Positions 6,268-37,839 of a DNA stretch of 39,029 nt are shown in pieces. The position numbers and the translations under genes were made by a program. How positions within the stretch are numbered: position 1 is the stretch's first letter; each line of letters opens with the position of its first letter. The DNA is from a virus: the IMG/VR virus record IMGVR_UViG_3300002518_000001, positions 1 to 39,029 of that record; one strand, written 5' to 3'. The notes beneath the pieces were generated by a model. That model was not told where the DNA came from. It did no database searches and saw nothing but the letters and a program-made list of their open reading frames with translations.

Positions 6268-6277
6268 TTGCATGGTC

Positions 6278-6331
6278 TTTTTTCAGATTTCAGATTTGCA
6301 CCGCAAAATAGAACGGGAAGAAAGACATTAC
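6278..6331 (+). repeat. Dispersed repeat element, copy 1
   Basis: Matches 16006-16052 over its whole length, with 41 consecutive identical bases (6291-6331 against 16012-16052), apart from an internal 7-bp tandem duplication of CAGATTT in this copy. It ends in GAAAGACATTAC. A third, diverged copy lies at 20810-20847. Confidence 0.85.
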
Positions 6332-6341
6332 GGGGTACTTT

Positions 6342-6365
6342 GGCACGACCGAAGTGCCTTTTTTT
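6342..6365 (+). terminator. Terminator or attenuator upstream of the hydrolase gene
   Basis: Stem GGCAC/GTGCC with a 7-nt loop followed by TTTTTTT. The T tract runs into TATAAT (6365-6370). This separates upstream transcription from a new start just before the gene at 6389. The stem is short, so termination may be partial. Confidence 0.5.
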
Positions 6366-6388
6366 ATAATATTCAGGAGAAGAACCCG

Positions 6389-7456
6389 ATGGTTGAGATG
6401 AAAAAAGAGAACAGAGTTGGATTGGAAGAGTGGGACAGGGCTCGTCCGACGGCTCTTGATTACAAGGATCGGATCAAGGGGGCCTTGTGGGGTCTCGCGG
6501 TGGGAGATGCCCTTGGGGCACCGTATGAGTTCGACAGTCGAGATTCGCGTCGTATCGGCAGCTTGGACGTTTCAATGAGTTACGGCACGGGTGGTACGTG
6601 GAATGTCCGCGAGGGGGAGTGGACGGACGACACGGCGATGGCGTTGTGCGGTATCGAGTCTTTGTTGTTGTGGGGAGGGTTGAATCCGGATGACTTGCTT
6701 CGTCGTTGGGTGGCGTGGTGGAGGAAGGGCTACATGAGTACTCGCGACGAGTGCTTTGACATCGGCACGACGACGTCGAGTGCCTTGTTGGAGTTCAGGA
6801 GGAGAGGCTTGTGGTATGAGGCGGGTCTCCAAAGTGGCGGTTCGGGGAATGGGTCGTTGATGCGGTTGGCTCCCTTTGTGCTTTGGTACGCGGAGCAGTC
6901 GGGCGACGTCGCAGTGGAAGCGGGTCGTATTTCGGGGAGACTGACGCACGGTTCGAGAGATTGCGACGACAGCGTGATGATCATGTCGCTCTTGATGGAG
7001 GCGTTGGTGTCGGGTGAATACATGACGGGGGCTTTGTTGGAGTTGCCGGATTTGTTGTCGGATTGGGTGGGTGCACCGGGTCTGATGCGATTGTTGGATG
7101 GTTCGGTTATCGCGATGTCGCGGGAGCAAGTGAGGTCGGGCGGTTATTGCGTGGACACGTTGGTGGCAGCGGTGTGGTCGGTGTTGCAGTCCACTTCGTT
7201 CTCGGAAGCGGTCGTTACGGCGATCCGTTTGGGTGGAGACACGGACACGGTGGCAGCGGTGGTTGGTCAGCTTGCGGGTCTCTTGTACGGGTGTTCGGGT
7301 ATTCCCAGGAGGTGGATCGAAGGGTTGCTTTGTTATGATCGTGTGAATGCATACATCAATCGTTTCACGGACGTCGTGATAGAGTTGGGTGAGCATGGCG
7401 AGACCACGTTCATGCCGCAGTGGATGGGAAGTCGGGTCTATTACGAGGGGCCTTAG
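6389..7456 (+). CDS. ADP-ribosylglycohydrolase (DraG-like)
   Basis: A 355-residue enzyme of the ADP-ribosylglycohydrolase family, which removes ADP-ribose from proteins or small molecules using two metal ions. Both metal-binding signatures are present: GALWGLAVGDALGAPYE and EWTDDTAMAL near residues 30-86, and GGDTDTVAAVVGQLAG near 281-296. The ATG at 6389 is chosen because AGGAGA lies 9 nt upstream; an earlier frame at 6272 would run through the repeat element. A TATAAT box and terminator-like hairpin lie just upstream, so it probably has its own transcription control. In a phage it could reverse host ADP-ribosylation used as defence, or undo phage-made ADP-ribosylation. The target cannot be told. 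Confidence 0.9.
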   Translation: MVEMKKENRVGLEEWDRARPTALDYKDRIKGALWGLAVGDALGAPYEFDSRDSRRIGSLDVSMSYGTGGTWNVREGEWTDDTAMALCGIESLLLWGGLNPDDLLRRWVAWWRKGYMSTRDECFDIGTTTSSALLEFRRRGLWYEAGLQSGGSGNGSLMRLAPFVLWYAEQSGDVAVEAGRISGRLTHGSRDCDDSVMIMSLLMEALVSGEYMTGALLELPDLLSDWVGAPGLMRLLDGSVIAMSREQVRSGGYCVDTLVAAVWSVLQSTSFSEAVVTAIRLGGDTDTVAAVVGQLAGLLYGCSGIPRRWIEGLLCYDRVNAYINRFTDVVIELGEHGETTFMPQWMGSRVYYEGP

Positions 7457-17378: not shown

Positions 17379-18647
17379 ATGTCTGAATTCGAGAGTATCC
17401 CTGCCCCTTCCGAATTGATTGCCCCTGCTACTGCTGAAACGGTGGAGGCTCCCCCGGTCCTTCCGCCTGTTGTCACCGAGCCGATCTTGTCGGCGGAAGA
17501 GCGGGCCGAGTCTGCGGCTTCTCGTCGCGGTGGTGCTGGCCTCCAAAAATACGACACCGACGGAAATCCGGTCTGCCGTCTTTGCGGTCGCGGCGTCGAA
17601 GACATGGCGAAGCACGTCCAAGAAGCTCACGGTGTCAATATCACCGAATACGCCAAAGAGTATCCCGGTTGGCCTTTGGTCTCCAAGAAGGTCAAGGGGC
17701 TCGGCGACGGACTCTCGTACTTGGAACGAGAGAAGAAAAAATTCTCGGTGTTTGAAACGTTCGGTTTTCATTGGCCTGAAAAGCCCGACAAAACCGTCGA
17801 TGGATACGCCGAAAGAGGCCCCCTGTGCCCCACGGTCGATCCCTTCTACGTGTTCGATCCCGAAGTCACGATGGATGCCCTCATGGCTATGCACCTCGGC
17901 GACAAAGTCCTGACCGTTGGTCCCACCGGATCGGGCAAATCTTCCCTGTGGCAGCAAATCGCGGCTCGCCTTGGTATGAACTTTCTCCGCATCAACTTCG
18001 ATGCCGGTGTCACCCGACCCGATCTCGTCGGTCAGTTCGTGGTCAAGGGTCGAGAGATGGAGTTCGCCTACGGTGCCCTGCCTCGCGGTATGGCTCTGCC
18101 CGGCACGATCATCTGCTTCGACGAGTGGGATGCTGTCTCGGAAGAGTGTGCTTTCGTTCTCCAACGCCCCTTGGAGGAAGACTCCCAACTGATGATTCTG
18201 GAGATCGGAGATCAAGTGGTCTCCCTGCACCCGGACAATATCATCGTTGCCACGTCGAACACCACCGGACTCGGTGACGATTCGGGCCTCTACTCCTCCG
18301 GTACCCGCATCCAGAACTACGCCACTGTCAACCGCTTCTCTATGACGATCAAGTTGGACTACCTTGCGAAAGAGCAAGAGGAGCAGATCCTGCTCCGTCG
18401 GTTCGAAGACCTCTCCGAAATGGAAGCTCGTGCTCTGGTCAAGATCGTCAACGCGACCCGCTCCTCCTCCGAGAAAGGTGAGATCGCCGCTCCCCTGAGT
18501 ACTCGCGATCTCGTGAATTGGTGCCAGAAGTACATCTTGACGGGTGATGTCGAAAAGGCCGCGAAGCTCGCCTTTATCCACCGCTCGCCTCGCGAAGATC
18601 AAGATGTCCTGCGCGGCATCGTCCGTCGCGGATGGCGTGGAGAGTAA
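17379..18647 (+). CDS. CobS-like MoxR-family AAA+ ATPase with MucR-like zinc finger
   Basis: A 422-residue AAA+ ATPase. After a Pro/Ala-rich start, residues 66-100 form a Ros/MucR-like zinc finger (Cys66, Cys69, His79, His84, then EYAKEYPGWPLVS). The motor follows: Walker A GPTGSGKS (181-188), RPDLVGQF (214-220), Walker B CFDEWD (246-251), sensor 1 VATSNTTGLGDDSGLY. These match CobS, the ATPase of aerobic cobaltochelatase. Such ATPases work with a VWA partner, here the next gene. No CobN-like subunit is visible, so true cobalt chelation is doubtful; remodelling of a protein substrate is the safer reading. AGGAG lies upstream of the ATG. Codon use shifts to C-ending codons compared with neighbours, suggesting high expression. 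Confidence 0.88.
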   Translation: MSEFESIPAPSELIAPATAETVEAPPVLPPVVTEPILSAEERAESAASRRGGAGLQKYDTDGNPVCRLCGRGVEDMAKHVQEAHGVNITEYAKEYPGWPLVSKKVKGLGDGLSYLEREKKKFSVFETFGFHWPEKPDKTVDGYAERGPLCPTVDPFYVFDPEVTMDALMAMHLGDKVLTVGPTGSGKSSLWQQIAARLGMNFLRINFDAGVTRPDLVGQFVVKGREMEFAYGALPRGMALPGTIICFDEWDAVSEECAFVLQRPLEEDSQLMILEIGDQVVSLHPDNIIVATSNTTGLGDDSGLYSSGTRIQNYATVNRFSMTIKLDYLAKEQEEQILLRRFEDLSEMEARALVKIVNATRSSSEKGEIAAPLSTRDLVNWCQKYILTGDVEKAAKLAFIHRSPREDQDVLRGIVRRGWRGE

Positions 18648-18662
18648 TCTCCGTACTCCCTG

Positions 18663-18685
18663 CCCCCAAGTTTTCTTGGGGGTTT
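18663..18685 (+). terminator. Rho-independent terminator after CobS-like gene
   Basis: Stem CCCCCAAG/CTTGGGGG with loop TTTT, followed by TTT. It begins 16 nt after the stop of the CobS-like gene. The stem is strong and the T tract short. Confidence 0.7.
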
Positions 18686-18690
18686 CCCAT

Positions 18691-18755
18691 GTGCGGTTTC
18701 TTGGCTAGCTCTTGGCTCATGCGTAATGCATAGGAATTTAGTCACTAAACCGCAC
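18691..18755. repeat. Long-range inverted repeat around palindrome copy 6
   Basis: GTGCGGTTT (18691-18699) and AAACCGCAC (18747-18755). The right arm overlaps the end of a 15-bp palindrome. It lies between the terminator and the promoter box of the CobT-like gene. Confidence 0.5.
18736..18750. promoter_or_regulatory. 15-bp palindrome, copy 6 (variant)
   Basis: ATTTAGTCACTAAAC, a two-sided variant (C to T in both arms plus one end base). It is 37 nt upstream of the TATATATA box of the CobT-like gene. Confidence 0.6.
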
Positions 18756-18786
18756 ATTTTCTGTGTCTGCTTTGCTCTCTTGTTTG

Positions 18787-18796
18787 TATATATATA
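18787..18796 (+). promoter_or_regulatory. TATATATA-type promoter box
   Basis: TATATATATA preceded by TTTG and followed by GG, 47 nt before the ATG at 18844. No sigma-70 -35 hexamer is evident. Confidence 0.5.
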
Positions 18797-18843
18797 GGCA
18801 TGAGTCAGAACAGGTAAGCCAAGAGCAACGGAGAAAAGAGAAA

Positions 18844-20784
18844 ATGATGAGAAGACCAGGAAGAGCGGCACGAGACTCTTTAAATAGTTCCTTGGAAAGG
18901 ATTGCGCGAGTCATCAGCGACAGGTACGACATTAACGTTGTCTTTCATAAAGACGACTGCTACACGGACGGTAGGACTATCGTTCTTCCTTCTGTTCCCG
19001 CCTCGGCAGATGCCGACTTCCTGCAAGCCCTTGAAGGCAAGTTGGATCACGAAGCCGGACACATCATTTTCACCGATTGGGATGCCGTGAACCGCTCCGC
19101 TGAACACCCTCAATTGAAGTGGTGGACGAACGTTTTGGAAGATGCTCGTATCGAGGCGTGTATCTGCGAAGCGTGGCCGGGTTGTCGGGCGAACTTGGAG
19201 TTCACTCAACGGTGGCTCTTGGAAAAAGATCTCGATGAGTGGCACTCCTTTGATAAGGAGAACAAAGAGGCCAAACTCGCGATTCTGTACGCTAAGGGCT
19301 ATGGCAGTTGGTTTTTGGAGATCCCCGATGCCGAATCGATGTTCAAAGAAGCGTGGGAAGACATCCTCCCTGCTCTGGGTTTGGCGGCGAAGCAAGAGTC
19401 CGCTTTTCACTCCCTCGCCTTGGCCATTTGGGTCATGGATACGATCGATCCCGATTGGCGTGAGGCCGGTCGCGAAGGTCTCGCTCCGTTCGTGCGTTCG
19501 AGCGAGGAGTTGGACGAGCTTTTGCGTACCCTCGCAGGAGCCGAGCGAGAGTTGGCCCGTATCGGTCGTGGTGGCAAAGTCATCGAAGGCGAAGGTGGTT
19601 CCGGCAGCACCGATCGATTCTCCGAAGCTTCTCGTCGTGCCCGAATCGAGGAAGAGGCGGGAGAGAGATACGGACACGGTATTACCCGGTCTTTTCTGGA
19701 AAAGTACGACGGCACCGACAGAGAAGAGAGGAAGCGTCGATCTCTGGCTCGAACGGGGGGCATGGGGGGGCGCCCTGCGGAGCATGGTCCTCGCTCCACG
19801 GATGACTTCGGTTCCAAGGCTCTGTCCGGGGTAGCAGGAGACATTCGACATCGCATCGGTGTTCCCGGCTCCGAACACTATGTTCCGGCGACAACCGAAG
19901 ACGACGTGATCCAATTGCAGTGGGACGGAAACTTGCATTGGTTCCAAACGAACCTCCAGGAGGTTCGAAAGATGTCGGGTGCCATGTCTCGCAGACTCCG
20001 TATGGTCATGATGTCTAAGGCATACCCAAGCACGGAATACGAAAAGCACTCTGGACGTCTGAATGTCCGGTCTCTCCCTCGGTTCCTGATGACCGGCAAC
20101 CCTCGCTGTTTCAAGCAGCGGTCAAGAGGCGAGGAGTTGTGTGCGAGAGCAACGCTGTTGGTCGATGAGTCCGGTTCCATGCATGGCACTCGTATCCAAG
20201 AAGCTCGGCGTGCTGCGATTCTGTTTGGTGAGTTTTGTGAGCAGTTGGGTATCCCCTTCGAGATTTTGGGTTTCTCCACGACCTCGACAGGCCACGAGCA
20301 AAAGAGATACGATCGTGCTGCTCCCGAAGACAAGTCGTACTACACGCGGTGGGGGAATCACCTTCTGTTGGTGTACAAGCGATTCGATGAGCAGTGGCGT
20401 CGTGTGGGTCATCGCATTCAACACATGTCGGGTCGCGACCAGAACTACGATGGTGAGTCTGTGCAGATCGCAGCCCAACGCTTGCTCATGGCGGCACAGC
20501 CCGGTGAGCGAAAGCTCCTGTTTGTCTTCTCCGACGGCTCTCCCGTTCAAAGCATCTACGAACACGCGGATGCCCACCAAGAGTATCTTCGCACGGTCAC
20601 GGGGTATCTTCCGGAAGTCGGTATCGAGGCCATTGGTATTGGCATCTGCACCGAAGCTGTGAAACACTACTACCCGAATTGGGTTGTGATCAACGATCCC
20701 CGTCAATTGTCCGGTGCCCAAATGTCGAAGCTGCGAGAAGTCTTTTTGGAGTCCAAAAAGCCGAAGCGTCGGCGAGCAAGATAG
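18844..20784 (+). CDS. CobT-like VWA protein with intact HExxH metallopeptidase motif
   Basis: A 646-residue partner of the CobS-like ATPase; length and layout fit CobT. The C-terminal von Willebrand A domain has a complete MIDAS start, DESGS near residues 441-445, with further acidic and Thr positions downstream. The N-terminal part contains HEAGH (69-73) followed by NVLEDARIEA (96-105), matching a gluzincin-type zinc peptidase site (HExxH plus a downstream Glu). In classical CobT, as far as I recall, the same region lacks a full HExxH. The middle (about 230-330) is charged and flexible. The start is ATG 18844, with GGAG 9 nt upstream. Like the ATPase gene it uses C-ending codons. It is probably a protein-remodelling or proteolytic complex. 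Confidence 0.85.
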   Translation: MMRRPGRAARDSLNSSLERIARVISDRYDINVVFHKDDCYTDGRTIVLPSVPASADADFLQALEGKLDHEAGHIIFTDWDAVNRSAEHPQLKWWTNVLEDARIEACICEAWPGCRANLEFTQRWLLEKDLDEWHSFDKENKEAKLAILYAKGYGSWFLEIPDAESMFKEAWEDILPALGLAAKQESAFHSLALAIWVMDTIDPDWREAGREGLAPFVRSSEELDELLRTLAGAERELARIGRGGKVIEGEGGSGSTDRFSEASRRARIEEEAGERYGHGITRSFLEKYDGTDREERKRRSLARTGGMGGRPAEHGPRSTDDFGSKALSGVAGDIRHRIGVPGSEHYVPATTEDDVIQLQWDGNLHWFQTNLQEVRKMSGAMSRRLRMVMMSKAYPSTEYEKHSGRLNVRSLPRFLMTGNPRCFKQRSRGEELCARATLLVDESGSMHGTRIQEARRAAILFGEFCEQLGIPFEILGFSTTSTGHEQKRYDRAAPEDKSYYTRWGNHLLLVYKRFDEQWRRVGHRIQHMSGRDQNYDGESVQIAAQRLLMAAQPGERKLLFVFSDGSPVQSIYEHADAHQEYLRTVTGYLPEVGIEAIGIGICTEAVKHYYPNWVVINDPRQLSGAQMSKLREVFLESKKPKRRRAR

Positions 20785-20847: not shown

Positions 20848-20858
20848 TGAATGTATGC

Positions 20859-20886
20859 GGAGCCCGGAAGACCGGGCTCCGTTTTT
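20859..20886 (+). terminator. Rho-independent terminator
   Basis: Perfect 9-bp stem GGAGCCCGG/CCGGGCTCC, loop AAGA, then GTTTTTG. It ends the CobT-like transcript before the sigma-like gene. Confidence 0.85.
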
Positions 20887-20891
20887 GTGCA

Positions 20892-20912
20892 TCGTGACAA
20901 AATTGGTCACGA
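20892..20912. promoter_or_regulatory. Inverted repeat, likely operator of the sigma-like gene
   Basis: TCGTGAC and GTCACGA with a 7-nt AT-rich spacer, 37 nt upstream of ATG 20950. The TCGTG/CACGA ends also occur in the promoter boxes at 16094 and, nearly so, 22990. Confidence 0.5.
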
Positions 20913-20949
20913 AAGCCACACAGATCAAAACAAAACAGAGGTAACGGGC

Positions 20950-21612
20950 ATGAACAGAAATTGGCACTACAATGATTTCCTGAAAAATTACGAAGGCTTT
21001 CTGCACAACCAGGCGAAGATTCTCGCGACTTGCCCCGGTGTCGATCTCGATGATGCCGCACAAGATGTTAGGATGTTTGCGTGGGAGGCCGTGACACACG
21101 AACGTTTCAACAGTTGGTCTGAGTCTCCGTCGGCTTGGATCTTTCAGCGGGTCGTGTGGGGTGTGCAGCGAAAGATCTCTGTGTATCGTCGATCCTATCT
21201 GGAGGTGCCTGCGAGTGCTTCACTGCAAAATAGGTGGTGTGTTTCTGAGTTCGGGTCGTGGAGGGTGCGGTGGTTGGACAATTTGGGGGAGTCGGATGTT
21301 ACTTATTCGGATGTGTTCAGGGGTCGATTCTATGACATAGAGAATCAAGTGGAGGCTCGTATCGCGTTGGAGCGGATTGAGAGATTCGCTGAGACATCGC
21401 TTCCGGAAGGGCAGCGGAGACCTATTTTGGCAGTGTTGCAACGCACGGAGGAGGTCATTGAACACTCGCAGAAGTCGAAAGGGGGTCGTGCGGGTGTGGC
21501 GACTTACGAGGTTGCGTCGGGTCCAAACCTGTCCACTTTCTTGAACCACCCGTGGGCCGCAAAAATGATGGAGCGGGCACAGAACAAAATCATCGAAGAG
21601 TTCAGTGACTAA
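20950..21612 (+). CDS. Sigma-factor-like protein
   Basis: A 220-residue protein with the outline of a small sigma-70 family factor. Residues about 28-75 (VDLDDAAQDVRMFAWEAV, then SPSAWIFQRVVWGVQRKI) match region 2 of ECF-type factors, which binds core polymerase and the -10 box. A later helical part (ALERIERFAETSLPEGQRRP) could be region 4 but is not clearly so. AGAGG precedes the ATG; an earlier frame at 20851 lies inside the terminator. The stop TAA lies within a 15-bp palindrome. If real, it could direct host polymerase to the TATATATA/TATATG promoters seen here. An alternative is another helical DNA-binding protein. Confidence 0.6.
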   Translation: MNRNWHYNDFLKNYEGFLHNQAKILATCPGVDLDDAAQDVRMFAWEAVTHERFNSWSESPSAWIFQRVVWGVQRKISVYRRSYLEVPASASLQNRWCVSEFGSWRVRWLDNLGESDVTYSDVFRGRFYDIENQVEARIALERIERFAETSLPEGQRRPILAVLQRTEEVIEHSQKSKGGRAGVATYEVASGPNLSTFLNHPWAAKMMERAQNKIIEEFSD

Positions 21613-25920: not shown

Positions 25921-28900
25921 ATGAGCAACCGAGTTCTCGTTTTTTCCGACTTGCAAGCACACACGCATCATGCGTACGCAAGGTCATTGCCGAATGGCCG
26001 GAATACCCGACTCAAGGCAGCGACGGACTGCTTGAAGTATATCATCGACTTTGCAAGGGAGAACCGGATTCGGGATGTGGTCTTCTGCGGGGATCTCTTC
26101 GAGACCAAGAATCGAATCCCGATGGTTGTTCTCCAAGAAGTGTGCGAATTGATCGTTGATTCGGTGGTTCACGGGTTGCGTTGGTTTATGATCCCAGGGA
26201 ACCATGACTATGCAGTGCGTAACGGAGAGGTCCACGCCTTGGCGTTATTGCGTGGGCACGAGGACATTTACATTTTTGATGAGGATTGGTCGCGTGTTCC
26301 ATTTCATAACTTTGGGGCATCCTTGGACAGTTCCATGTCCGCACGAGGGGGCGTGCCGACCTTGATCCACACGGTCAAATATGCAGAGAAATTACCAGTA
26401 GAGGTGTTCGATGTGGAGCCGGACGAGGGCTCTCTGCGGGTATTGTTGGCTCATGGTTATGTGGAGGGCATGTGCGACTTCCCCCACGACTTCCCGGAAG
26501 ACGAGATGGCCCAAGACGGGGAGTGGATACGAAGAGCGTGGCTCCGAGGCTTCGACGCGGCTCTGGTGGGTCACTACCACAAGCCAATGGTTGAGAACAT
26601 TCACGGGTGCCAGGTTATTGTTCCGGGTTGCCCGTATCAAGAGAAGTCCGACGCTATGGGCCAAGAGCGAGGGTTCTTTGTTTGGGACTTGGACAGTCGG
26701 GAGGCAACGAAGCATGTGATCCCGGAGAGCGTGGCACCGAGATTTGTGAAAGTGTCCATTGGGGCCGATGGTGTTGTGGAAGAGGAGGTCGCGTCCAACA
26801 GCATTGTATTATTGGAGCCTGCGGTAAGAGGGGTGCCTGCGGATGTGATTAAGCAAGCTCGTCAGAGCCTGATGGCTTCGGGTGCCTCGTACGTAGAGCC
26901 CCTGACGTTGCCACGCACTCCGGTCGTCCGGGTGGAGCGTCCAGCGATCGAGGTCGGCACCCGAAGTACACCGTTGAGTGTGTTAAAGCGTGTCCTTCGT
27001 TCGGATGCTATCGACCTGCGGGGGTGTTCTCTGCGTGAGTTGGAGCGAAAGGCTTCGGCTATTATCGCGGAGCATGGGCTCTTGCGAAAAGGGGCAAAGG
27101 GTGGATCTCCTGTGGTGGAGATGTATTTGAGTGCGCGAGATGCGTTTGCATTCGGTCGGGTTGATGTGGAGTTGACCGACCAGGGCTTGCTTGGAGTGGG
27201 GGGTGTCAACATGGAGACTTCTCAGGCGAGCAGCAATGGTGCGGGGAAGTCCACGCTTCCGGATGTGGTGTCGTTAGTCTTGTTTGGGAAGTCTCTGCGA
27301 AATGTGCGGGCAGATGAAACGATCCGCCGGGGAGCACGATCGTATCGAGGCATGATTCGGTTTGCGACATCCGATGGCAAGCGATACGAGATCTTTCGTT
27401 GCAGAAAAGACAAAGAGTTCGGGGGCGGGCTGTTCTTCCGGAAGGGATGGGGTGAGTACGACTTGGAGGAATTTGAACTTCCAGGAAAAGACGTCGATAT
27501 GCGCGGAGGAGAGGGGAAGGAGACGCAGGATCATATCTCAGCGTCGCTCAGTATGGGGTTCGGGTTGTTCCGTGCCTTAGTTCTGTTGGGAGAAGGTGGA
27601 GACTTTCGGTTTGCAGCGTTGGGAGATTCGGCAAAAAAAGATGTCTTGTCAGATATTCTGGGGGTGTCGTTCTATGATGATCTCGCCAAAAACGCTCGGT
27701 CTCTTGCGAACACTCTGAGCGACGAGCAGGACAAATTGGAAGCAGAAGCAGGAGTACTGCTTTCGGAGAAGGAGGACGCAAACCGCGAGTGGCATGTCGT
27801 GCAAGAGTCATTGGTGCGTTGGGAGAGAAAGCACCTGTATGAGATCCAAGGTGCCGAGGAGACTTTGGTTGCCGCACAAAAGGTTTTGCGACTCGCAGAC
27901 GAAAAAATCATTGCACCGGCAGCGGGAAGTTCAGTGACTGAACTGAAAGATACGCGGGTTCGTGTTCTGGAATTCCGGGAATTGCTCGAACAAGCCAGAG
28001 AGGACCATGCAGGTCTCTTGGAGGAAGCGAACGAGAGTGCTCTTGCTTCTCAATCCAAGGTTGTCGGCCTGTTGTCGGATGTTCGATCGGTCGAGGCCCA
28101 ATTGAAAGATCGGCGTGACTTGATCGCTCGTGGGAGGTGCGGAGAGTGCGGGCAAATCGTGACGGAAGATGTCTGCGAAGGCAAACTCTCCGAGTTAGAG
28201 GGACGCTTGGCAGAGTTGCAGGAAGATCTCCATGTTGCCAAAGGTCGAAAGTCCAGTTTGTCCGCGATCTACAACGATAGGCTTGTCTCCAGCACAGGGG
28301 ATACCTCAGAATTGGAAGAGACCTTGGGAGGGTTTCGGGCGAGAGTCGAGGAATTGGAGGCCGACGGTTTGTTGATCGCACAGGCGAAAGACCGGCGTGC
28401 TCAAGCTGCTCGCTTGCACGGGATACGCAGAGATGAGGTCGAGCGTTTGAAAGCCGAGGCGAATCCACACACAGGAGAGAGCGAAAGGCTCGTAGGGAGA
28501 TCGGCCCGGTTGGTGACCGAGCGGGACATAAAGTTGCGAGAGCAGGCGTCGAAGCACTTGGACATGCTGCACTACAAAGTCCTCGCGGATGCGTTCGGAC
28601 CCAAAGGGGCTCGATCAATGCTGTTTGACGAACTGATGCCGCAGTTGAACGATCGTTTGGAGTTATACTCCGACCTTTTTTGCGGGGGGTATATTCGAAT
28701 ATCGGTGCAGTCGCAGTCTGAAACTGCCAGGGGAAAGGTGCAAGAGAAGATTGGGCTTGTGGTGGACTTCCCATCCGGTTCGTGTTCTTATGGCTCATGC
28801 AGTGCAGGAGAGAAGAGGCGAGTGGATTTGCCTGTTCTGTTTGCTCTCCAAGACGTCGCTGCTGCTTACGGTGTGGGGTTGGGCTTCTGCTTTTTGGACG

Positions 28901-29115
28901 AAGCGTTCGAGAATGTGGACGCAGCGGGCAAGGTTGGACTGATGGACCTGCTCTCCGAGGTGTCGGGTCGATCGCACACTTCCACGGTCTTTGTCGTCAC
29001 TCACGATGAGGACTTGTTGGGATTGTTCGATCCGGTGATGTGGTGTTATCGTGTAGGCGGGCGAACGAGCTTGTTTTTCGGAACATCGACTGCCCCAACA
29101 GAAGTGCCTGCTTGA
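25921..29115 (+). CDS. Fused Mre11-Rad50 (SbcD-SbcC / gp47-gp46) exonuclease
   Basis: One uninterrupted 1064-residue frame containing both halves of the Mre11-Rad50 DNA end-processing complex, normally two proteins. Residues 1-300 are the SbcD/Mre11 phosphoesterase: SDLQAH (8-13), CGDLFE, GNHDY (94-98), LAHGYVEG and GHYHKP (about 217-222). From about 400 the SbcC/Rad50 ATPase follows: Walker A NGAGKST (439-445), a long coiled coil, a zinc hook CGEC (740-743), a second coiled coil, signature CSAGEKRR (about 959-966) and Walker B FCFLDEAFEN (988-997). It trims double-strand ends to give ssDNA for RecA. A perfect 15-bp palindrome lies inside the coding sequence (27929). CAGGAG lies about 10 nt before the ATG. 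Confidence 0.95.
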   Translation: MSNRVLVFSDLQAHTHHAYARSLPNGRNTRLKAATDCLKYIIDFARENRIRDVVFCGDLFETKNRIPMVVLQEVCELIVDSVVHGLRWFMIPGNHDYAVRNGEVHALALLRGHEDIYIFDEDWSRVPFHNFGASLDSSMSARGGVPTLIHTVKYAEKLPVEVFDVEPDEGSLRVLLAHGYVEGMCDFPHDFPEDEMAQDGEWIRRAWLRGFDAALVGHYHKPMVENIHGCQVIVPGCPYQEKSDAMGQERGFFVWDLDSREATKHVIPESVAPRFVKVSIGADGVVEEEVASNSIVLLEPAVRGVPADVIKQARQSLMASGASYVEPLTLPRTPVVRVERPAIEVGTRSTPLSVLKRVLRSDAIDLRGCSLRELERKASAIIAEHGLLRKGAKGGSPVVEMYLSARDAFAFGRVDVELTDQGLLGVGGVNMETSQASSNGAGKSTLPDVVSLVLFGKSLRNVRADETIRRGARSYRGMIRFATSDGKRYEIFRCRKDKEFGGGLFFRKGWGEYDLEEFELPGKDVDMRGGEGKETQDHISASLSMGFGLFRALVLLGEGGDFRFAALGDSAKKDVLSDILGVSFYDDLAKNARSLANTLSDEQDKLEAEAGVLLSEKEDANREWHVVQESLVRWERKHLYEIQGAEETLVAAQKVLRLADEKIIAPAAGSSVTELKDTRVRVLEFRELLEQAREDHAGLLEEANESALASQSKVVGLLSDVRSVEAQLKDRRDLIARGRCGECGQIVTEDVCEGKLSELEGRLAELQEDLHVAKGRKSSLSAIYNDRLVSSTGDTSELEETLGGFRARVEELEADGLLIAQAKDRRAQAARLHGIRRDEVERLKAEANPHTGESERLVGRSARLVTERDIKLREQASKHLDMLHYKVLADAFGPKGARSMLFDELMPQLNDRLELYSDLFCGGYIRISVQSQSETARGKVQEKIGLVVDFPSGSCSYGSCSAGEKRRVDLPVLFALQDVAAAYGVGLGFCFLDEAFENVDAAGKVGLMDLLSEVSGRSHTSTVFVVTHDEDLLGLFDPVMWCYRVGGRTSLFFGTSTAPTEVPA
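27929..27943. promoter_or_regulatory. 15-bp palindrome, copy 9 (inside coding sequence)
   Basis: GTTCAGTGACTGAAC, exact consensus, within the Rad50-like coiled coil, encoding Ser-Val-Thr-Glu-Leu. It is the only copy not at a gene end or in a gap. Confidence 0.75.
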
Positions 29116-35970: not shown

Positions 35971-37839
35971 TCAGATCTCGCACACTCCACCAGCACAAGC
36001 CTGTGTTTGACGGACTTCCGTGCCATCCTCCCACTCTTTGACGTCCGATACTTTCATTTTGTGGACGTTTGCGGCCAGTCTCTCCCATTCTTCGTCGGGT
36101 ATTTGTTGGTACACTAGCTGCTCGAAGTCGGTGTCGTCTTGTTGCGGGAAGACACTGATCGCCGTGTAGCTGTCGCGGTGTTCCCACATCCACTCGCCGA
36201 CATCGTCCCACTCGTTTTGCCCCACATAGACGGTGGCAGACACATTGTTTTGGTTGTCGCCTTCGCGGTGGCCGGGTTCGATCCAATCTTGGTGGAACCG
36301 ACGGATTCGCTCCAACAGGTCGATGGGGGATTCGGTGCTGCGGCTACTGCCGCTGCCGCTGTGGACCAAGGGGATATTGATGAATGCCTCTCTGTCAGGG
36401 ACATACACGGAGTCTTCCACGAGTTCTGGTGCGACTGCCATGGCATGTTCATAGATTGCACTGCCCTTATTCAGGGTCAGGCGTCGAATGTACCGACCGT
36501 GACGCTCCGGGCTATGGATGCCACATGGGACGCCTCCCAATCGCAAGGAGGAGGTTCCTTCGGGCTTCAGCAAGGTTGTGCGCTTGGCCGGATTGATTCC
36601 CAAGATTTTGGCCATGCGTGCGTTCTCCTCCAGCACGACGCGGGCGGCAGCTTGCAGATCCAATCTTTCGACGTTGCCTGCGGTGATGCCCGTCATGGAG
36701 ATGCCAATGAGGGCGTCTTCGTCGGTGCGCTCTTTCCATTCAGGTCGCAGCAGGTGAAAGTCGGTGTAGGTGGCCTGGATCGTGGCAATCCGTGCAGCCA
36801 TTCGTGCTCTGTGTTCCAGATCAGATTGACATTCAATGGTGGATGCGTTTATCGTGGCAAGGTTACAAAACGTATAGAAACGGAGGCTTGCCTCAAGGCA
36901 TGGATTAAATAACCAATCCAGGTTATGGGTCCAAAAGATGGCGGGCTCGCCGTATTTGGATTGAGCGATAATCTCCCAGTATTTCCAGAAGGAGGACTCG
37001 TCGTGCTCCGAGCGGAGGAGGGCAGCATCTATATTGGCCATGCGGCGCCAAGGGTGGGTTTCGGTCCAATTGCCTGCTTTGTAGTGGAGCATGCGAGGAT
37101 CGTCGTGGGAGAAGATGCAAACATAAGAGGAACGGCGAACACCACCAGACAGGACCGCTTCCGCGAAGTGACACATGATGTCGGAGGCTTCATCGGTTTC
37201 CAACTGTTGGCCCGGTTTCTTGTCGGCCAGGATGCTCTCGACTCGTTGGAGGGCGTCGAGTAGGGGGTTGGGTCCGGGGGCTCGACCTCCTGTTGTGCTC
37301 AGGAAAGATCCTGCCGGTCGGACGTCGGAGGGATCGAATCGAGGCCTGGGGTCGCCGCAGAAGTAAGCGCAGAGGAGGGCGTCGAGCGCTTCGGCCCATC
37401 CTTCGATGGTGTCCACGATCAGGTATCTGCGATCGAGTCGTGGTCTTTGGATAGGGGGGAGTTGGGCGACGTGTTGGCGTTGAACGGAGTATCCGACACC
37501 GCATCCGCTCAGGAGGAGAAAAAATGCCTCAGTGAAGGCTCGCGGGTGGATAATGGCAGTCGCCGAGCAGTTGTACAAGCGGGCCGGATTCTTGATGATC
37601 GGGTCGCCGCCGTACTGAAGAGAGCGCATAGAGGGGAGAACTTTATCGTCGTAGACCAATTGAAACGCTTCGCGGATCGGATCGGCCAAATGGGGCAGCT
37701 TCCGAATGTGCATGGTTTCGGTGCGAGATACATTCTCTCTAGGGGTCTCCCTTCGATGCAGTTCCTTCAAGTATTTTGCGTACTTGTCGAAGTGGATTAG
37801 TTGTTTGAGTAAGGTGCGGGCATTAGCGTCTTGACTCAT
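35971..37839 (-). CDS. nrdJ: Class II (adenosylcobalamin-dependent) ribonucleotide reductase, monomeric RTPR-like
   Basis: A 622-residue enzyme that reduces ribonucleotides to deoxyribonucleotides with coenzyme B12 as radical source. It fits the monomeric Lactobacillus RTPR type. Active-site Cys are placed as expected: Cys91 (LYNCSA), thiyl Cys314 in NPCLE, and Cys325 eleven residues later (FCNLATIN), the same 11-residue spacing as Cys408/Cys419 in RTPR. The C-terminal redox pair is Cys615/Cys620 in ACAGGVC, spaced like Cys731/Cys736. It is about 115 residues shorter than RTPR. GGAGA precedes the ATG. It is leftward, divergent from 38119, with its own promoter at 37938-37967. It needs no O2 or small subunit, but depends on host B12. 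Confidence 0.93.
   Translation of the reverse strand: MSQDANARTLLKQLIHFDKYAKYLKELHRRETPRENVSRTETMHIRKLPHLADPIREAFQLVYDDKVLPSMRSLQYGGDPIIKNPARLYNCSATAIIHPRAFTEAFFLLLSGCGVGYSVQRQHVAQLPPIQRPRLDRRYLIVDTIEGWAEALDALLCAYFCGDPRPRFDPSDVRPAGSFLSTTGGRAPGPNPLLDALQRVESILADKKPGQQLETDEASDIMCHFAEAVLSGGVRRSSYVCIFSHDDPRMLHYKAGNWTETHPWRRMANIDAALLRSEHDESSFWKYWEIIAQSKYGEPAIFWTHNLDWLFNPCLEASLRFYTFCNLATINASTIECQSDLEHRARMAARIATIQATYTDFHLLRPEWKERTDEDALIGISMTGITAGNVERLDLQAAARVVLEENARMAKILGINPAKRTTLLKPEGTSSLRLGGVPCGIHSPERHGRYIRRLTLNKGSAIYEHAMAVAPELVEDSVYVPDREAFINIPLVHSGSGSSRSTESPIDLLERIRRFHQDWIEPGHREGDNQNNVSATVYVGQNEWDDVGEWMWEHRDSYTAISVFPQQDDTDFEQLVYQQIPDEEWERLAANVHKMKVSDVKEWEDGTEVRQTQACAGGVCEI

Follow-up and report, generated by a model that had tools for sequence, protein, structure and literature searches.

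Two neighbouring genes at positions 17379-20784 of a 39,029-nucleotide window, the whole stretch of phage DNA analysed here and itself taken from a virus record of 104,653 bases, encode a pair that we read, at a probability of roughly two in three, as a MoxR-class AAA+ ATPase and a VWA partner whose N-terminal domain would be a zinc-dependent metallopeptidase, the two together remodelling a client protein at the expense of ATP and cutting it, with the cobaltochelatase subunit CobT as a decayed branch of the same family. A machine that remodels or cuts proteins is a likelier identity for the pair than a B12 enzyme, because the peptidase site lost from true CobT is intact here and in relatives from many phages and plasmids.

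The CobT-like open reading frame starts with ATG and translates into 646 residues up to its stop; a longer frame with a GTG start opens at 18763, though a GGAG lies upstream of 18844. The protein consists of an N-terminal HExxH domain (Pfam CobT, 3.3e-10, residues 11-120), a linker that AlphaFold predicts to be disordered (residues 241-338, about 15% of the protein) and a C-terminal VWA domain (Pfam CobT_C, 9.8e-26, residues 434-636) with an intact MIDAS, its DxSxS and SDG segments being conserved across homologues (Table 1). Three phage loci have the protein split into two frames, one for the peptidase domain and one for the VWA domain, and one locus has two tandem copies (L026, L038, L052, L032).

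Table 1. Positions in the window of the gene pair, its motifs and other genes discussed in the text.
Feature	Position	Strand	Evidence
ADP-ribosylglycohydrolase family protein	6272-7456	+	phrog_6572, 1.3e-62
CobS/MoxR-type AAA+ ATPase, 422 aa	17379-18647	+	AAA_5 1.4e-14; TIGR01650; phrog_249
C2H2-like zinc-finger pattern CRLCGRGVEDMAKHVQEAH, ahead of the AAA module of the ATPase	17574-17630	+	pattern
Walker A of the ATPase, GPTGSGKS	17919-17942	+	motif
Walker B of the ATPase, ICFDEWD	18111-18131	+	motif
CobT-like protein, 646 aa	18844-20784	+	translation; Pfam CobT and CobT_C; AlphaFold
HEAGH, residues 69-73 (His69 and His73 as predicted zinc ligands, Glu70 as predicted catalytic residue)	19048-19062	+	invariant in 51 homologues
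NVLEDARIEA, residues 96-105 (Asp100 the predicted third ligand)	19129-19158	+	co-occurrence with HExxH
MIDAS motif DESGSM of the VWA domain, residues 441-446	20164-20181	+	conserved; VWA fold match to NorD and MDN1 MIDAS
Second conserved MIDAS segment SDGSP, residues 563-567	20530-20544	+	S563, D564, G565 and P567 are invariant columns
Downstream gene, possible sigma-70 region 2	20851-21612	+	weak, 18.7 bits against a cut-off of 24
Fused SbcD-SbcC (Mre11-Rad50-like), one 1064-aa frame	25921-29115	+	matches SbcD-type phosphoesterase and SbcC-type ATPase
Adenosylcobalamin-type ribonucleotide reductase	35971-37839	-	TIGR02505, 206 bits, below the 340-bit cut-off

Translation confirms both HEAGH and NVLEDARIEA, the motifs on which the original prediction was built, and the alignment check that it had proposed bears out the histidines and Glu70, together with its statement that this region is degenerate in CobT. 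Homologues were taken from phage records, IMG/VR, GTDB genomes and plasmids, with near copies removed, and the CobT query for the genome search was read from the PDB alignment. Among 72 non-redundant viral homologues that include the region, 68 carry HExxH, two carry HExxxH (L023, L051) and two carry neither (L006, L007), while 51 aligned phage proteins, about 21-28% identical to the window protein, show no variation at His69, Glu70 or His73. In bacterial CobTs, by contrast, HExxH is replaced by a DSMALR-type sequence in all 26 non-redundant proteins, mostly with EQARVEA downstream, and the CobT of PDB 9uka reads GDSMALRQ and VEQARVEA at the matching places. Judged by these alignments, the occurrence of HExxH in CobT-like phage proteins is far above chance. 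The HExxxH variants need not be dead, since the HEXXGH form occurs in dipeptidyl peptidase III. Four phage or plasmid proteins (L006, L007, L090, L226) have lost both histidines and keep the module, so that cutting seems dispensable in some lineages, which suggests that remodelling alone can suffice. Cyanophage S-CAM3 has an annotated "peptidase" that lacks HExxH as annotated; its start may be wrong, because the tblastn match begins upstream of it. When viral contigs were scanned with a single protein, no relative could be confirmed.

The third zinc ligand, which had been expected at Glu99 or Glu104, is probably Asp100. Of the 74 sequences that have the histidines, 73 also have this residue, against 1 of the 41 that lack them, whereas Glu99 (70/74 and 41/41, respectively) and Glu104 (64/74 and 39/41) are also kept in CobTs that lack the histidines and are therefore not diagnostic; in the four phage or phage-plasmid proteins without both histidines, Glu99 is always kept and Asp100 is changed in three. 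The Fisher test of Asp100 against HExxH yields 1e-28, a value that is not phylogenetically valid, and on the tree the association amounts to about four changes, only one of them on well-supported branches; with so few changes, we present it as suggestive. The proposal of a gluzincin peptidase survives in part: HExxH is complete, but a downstream Glu specific to HExxH proteins was not found, both Glu residues being equally kept without HExxH and the specific residue being Asp100, and the domain has no fold match in the PDB.

An AlphaFold2 model of the N domain built on 51 sequences (pLDDT 87.3, pTM 0.82, with pLDDT about 94-96 around both motifs) comprises strands at residues 31-35 and 45-49, the HEAGH helix at 57-76 and, as the next long helix, the NVLED helix at 89-110, in which Asp100 sits. 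The structure prediction thus places both motifs in confident helices, while a Foldseek search of the N domain against the PDB returned no significant match and no zincin (best E 2.6), and its matches among viral models were confined to the same family. By motif, a conserved HExxH within a helix, the domain would count as a zincin; by fold, the PDB gives no match. PDB 9zq6 (AcrIIA26, an anti-CRISPR described as a novel fold) weakly matches the N-domain profile A3 (E 1.8e-4 over 54 residues), across the NxxEDxxIE helix, and may be a piece of a phage peptidase or a chance similarity.

The ATPase has the Walker A and B motifs and sensor residues of the MoxR class and adjoins a VWA gene; its TIGR01650 (CobS) match reaches 1.5e-42 and 145.9 bits, against an equivalog cut-off of 559. 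Of 89 phage CobS-like ATPases, 24 have a C2H2-like zinc finger, a feature absent from all 117 bacterial CobS proteins. Pairing of the two genes is nearly constant, a CobS-like gene lying within 3 kb of the CobT-like gene, on either side, in 92 of 94 phage loci; in the window, the ATPase gene comes first. We propose that the VWA MIDAS would link the ATPase ring to a protein complex, as is thought for NorQ/NorD and CobS/CobT, and that ATP-driven remodelling would then present the client to the peptidase domain, where His69, Glu70, His73 and probably Asp100 would form the zinc site at which it is cut; zinc binding, cutting and their coupling to ATP are what we infer from the motifs and the pairing. 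In true CobT, the peptidase site would have decayed and only a scaffold role would be left, a direction of change that we read from an unrooted tree.

An explanation that dispenses with proteolysis would have the metal site of the N domain serve structure or client binding, the ATPase/VWA pair being a remodeller only. It would accommodate the lineages that keep the module without the histidines, and CobT likewise, and it agrees with the fold match of the VWA half to NorD in the NorQD complex (1.8e-10) and to the MDN1 MIDAS domain, given that NorQD, CobST and MDN1 remodel without cutting. Glu70 argues the other way, being needless at a purely structural site and yet invariant in the 51 homologues, although the argument is not decisive, as Glu70 is also kept in phage proteins that lack the histidines (REV, QEV, SEI). 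We regard the non-proteolytic explanation as unlikely and favour an ATP-driven metallopeptidase.

The same holds for a role in B12 synthesis, in which viral CobST, as an auxiliary metabolic module, would join host CobN as a cobaltochelatase and raise the B12 available to DNA synthesis by the phage (Liu et al. 2021, PMC8651126). Both phage proteins are homologous over their full length to CobT and CobS (TIGR01651/TIGR01650; PDB 9uka), and the CobT-like protein shares with CobT the VWA MIDAS, the long linker and the pairing with CobS. The main point in favour is that the window phage encodes its own adenosylcobalamin-type ribonucleotide reductase, which keeps the B12 role alive as a rival. Against that role, only about seven of 37 phage records, that of the window phage included, have a class II (B12) type enzyme, compared with 16 that have a class I small subunit. 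Both proteins also score far under the equivalog cut-offs (101.9 of 759 bits for TIGR01651 on the CobT-like protein, and the ATPase as given above). The HExxH site that is missing in CobT, which has DSMALR in its place and Q for Asp100, is kept in the phage proteins, and the zinc finger of many phage ATPases occurs on no bacterial CobS. CobN, with which CobT works, was found neither in the record of the window phage nor in 36 other phage records, though the host may still have it. Among 5,426 complete E. coli genomes, 219 have phage-plasmids and 87 have IncC-like plasmids that carry relatives, and CobN was not found in an E. coli control genome. The absence of CobN from the 37 phage records, together with the carriage of the module by E. 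coli plasmids where the control genome lacks CobN, makes a chelatase role unlikely. The original prediction of an ATP-driven cutting or remodelling machine in place of a metal chelatase is thus partly supported, by the kept HExxH, the coupled MoxR/CobS-type ATPase and the missing CobN, but not as regards the prohead, which it had named as a possible target.

In bacteria, CobN was seen in 19 of 45 CobT-family genomes and not in the other 26, with incompleteness as a possible cause. The presence of CobN consequently fails to separate the two types there, and a missing CobN says little by itself; a further function of bacterial CobST is another possible cause.

The neighbouring genes favour replication or transcription complexes over the prohead as the client, though context is no proof of it. 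The virus record encodes a primase, DnaB, a UvsW-like helicase, a single-strand binding protein, a UvsX-like protein, SbcCD (SbcD and SbcC fused in one frame; Table 1) and a terminase; an ADP-ribosylglycohydrolase family protein is also encoded in the phage. The gene directly downstream of the pair, with its possible sigma-70 region 2, parallels in position the sigma gene that follows the module in other phages, while hhalign detected no homology between the two (probability 0.1%). The "peptidase" and CobS genes of cyanophages S-PM2 and S-CAM8 have gp46, gp47, gp55, gp45 and gp44 as neighbours. Rhizobium phage V1VFA-S and an Acinetobacter phage-plasmid share the gene order VWA, ATPase, sigma-70, unknown and DnaE, and IncC plasmids have AAA, unknown, ssb, bet, exo, DUF3150 and VWA, the last with HEAAH. 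Among 143 neighbour proteins from 31 representative loci, the commonest families are DNA polymerase (10), sigma-70 (6), ligase, DnaB helicase, primase and uracil-DNA glycosylase. Four loci (L212, L213, L214, L225) have related HExxH VWA genes beside DUF3150, with DUF7146/Toprim primase also present in genome loci, and are probably mobile elements in bacterial genomes.

Another alternative is virion maturation, in which the pair would process head or tail proteins; it has been proposed on the model of a MoxR-vWA pair that an archaeal virus requires for tail assembly (Iyer et al. 2021, PMC7824862), and the prohead target of the original prediction is of this kind. Apart from that proposal, it can draw on the terminase gene about 10 kb downstream of the CobT-like gene. 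None of the 25 commonest neighbour families is a head or tail family, the neighbours being replication and sigma-factor genes and not capsid genes, so that a prohead target is unsupported, and conjugative IncC plasmids, although they form no virions, carry a module of the same kind; we consider virion maturation very improbable. For the metallopeptidase machine, the most likely client, and a guess made from the gene context, is a replication, recombination or transcription complex of the phage or its host.

The kind of system is already known, since Iyer et al. (2021, PMC7824862) described, in group 2.2 jumbo phages, a MoxR-type ATPase adjoining a vWA protein whose N-terminal domain is a metallopeptidase, and suggested virion assembly. 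Compared by description, that pair is alike in layout; the passages describing it give no CobT link or third ligand, and they point to virion assembly, in contrast to the replication and transcription context found here. The "peptidase" label of the cyanophage CobT has been called mistaken (Liu et al. 2021, PMC8651126); our data contradict this and, as far as sequence can tell, side with the peptidase label. The cyanophage "peptidase" (phrog_459, e.g., S-PM2) has HEVGH and NVIEDARIEK and adjoins a CobS-like ATPase, differing from the window pair in its reversed gene order and its T4-like replication cluster. Similarly, the VWA protein of the IncC plasmid pEC2-NDM-3 has HEAAH and NVLEDCRIER with an AAA ATPase nearby, and differs in the DUF3150 of its module and in residing on a conjugative plasmid with ssb-bet-exo. 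NorQ/NorD, which acts on nitric oxide reductase, shares the MoxR-class AAA+ ATPase, the VWA partner and the VWA fold, whereas no N-domain match to it was seen in the fold search. Measured against the open-licence literature, and with earlier statements possible elsewhere, what is added here is the link between the phage peptidase, the plasmid VWA protein and the decayed CobT domain, together with Asp100 as the proposed third ligand and the case against a B12 role.

More tentatively, and with a chance that we put at clearly less than even, what are called "CobS/CobT B12 genes" in cyanophages, in phage-plasmids and IncC plasmids and in many tailed phages might all form one mobile-element family of ATP-driven metalloproteases acting on replication or transcription complexes, with bacterial CobT as the branch whose protease has decayed. 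Lists of B12 auxiliary metabolic genes widely include CobS and CobT from cyanophages and other phages. Should the site prove active, the B12 reading would be wrong for a gene family present in hundreds of phages and plasmids, laboratory E. coli phage-plasmids would offer a testable ATP-driven protease, and the odd N domain of cobaltochelatase CobT would have an origin.
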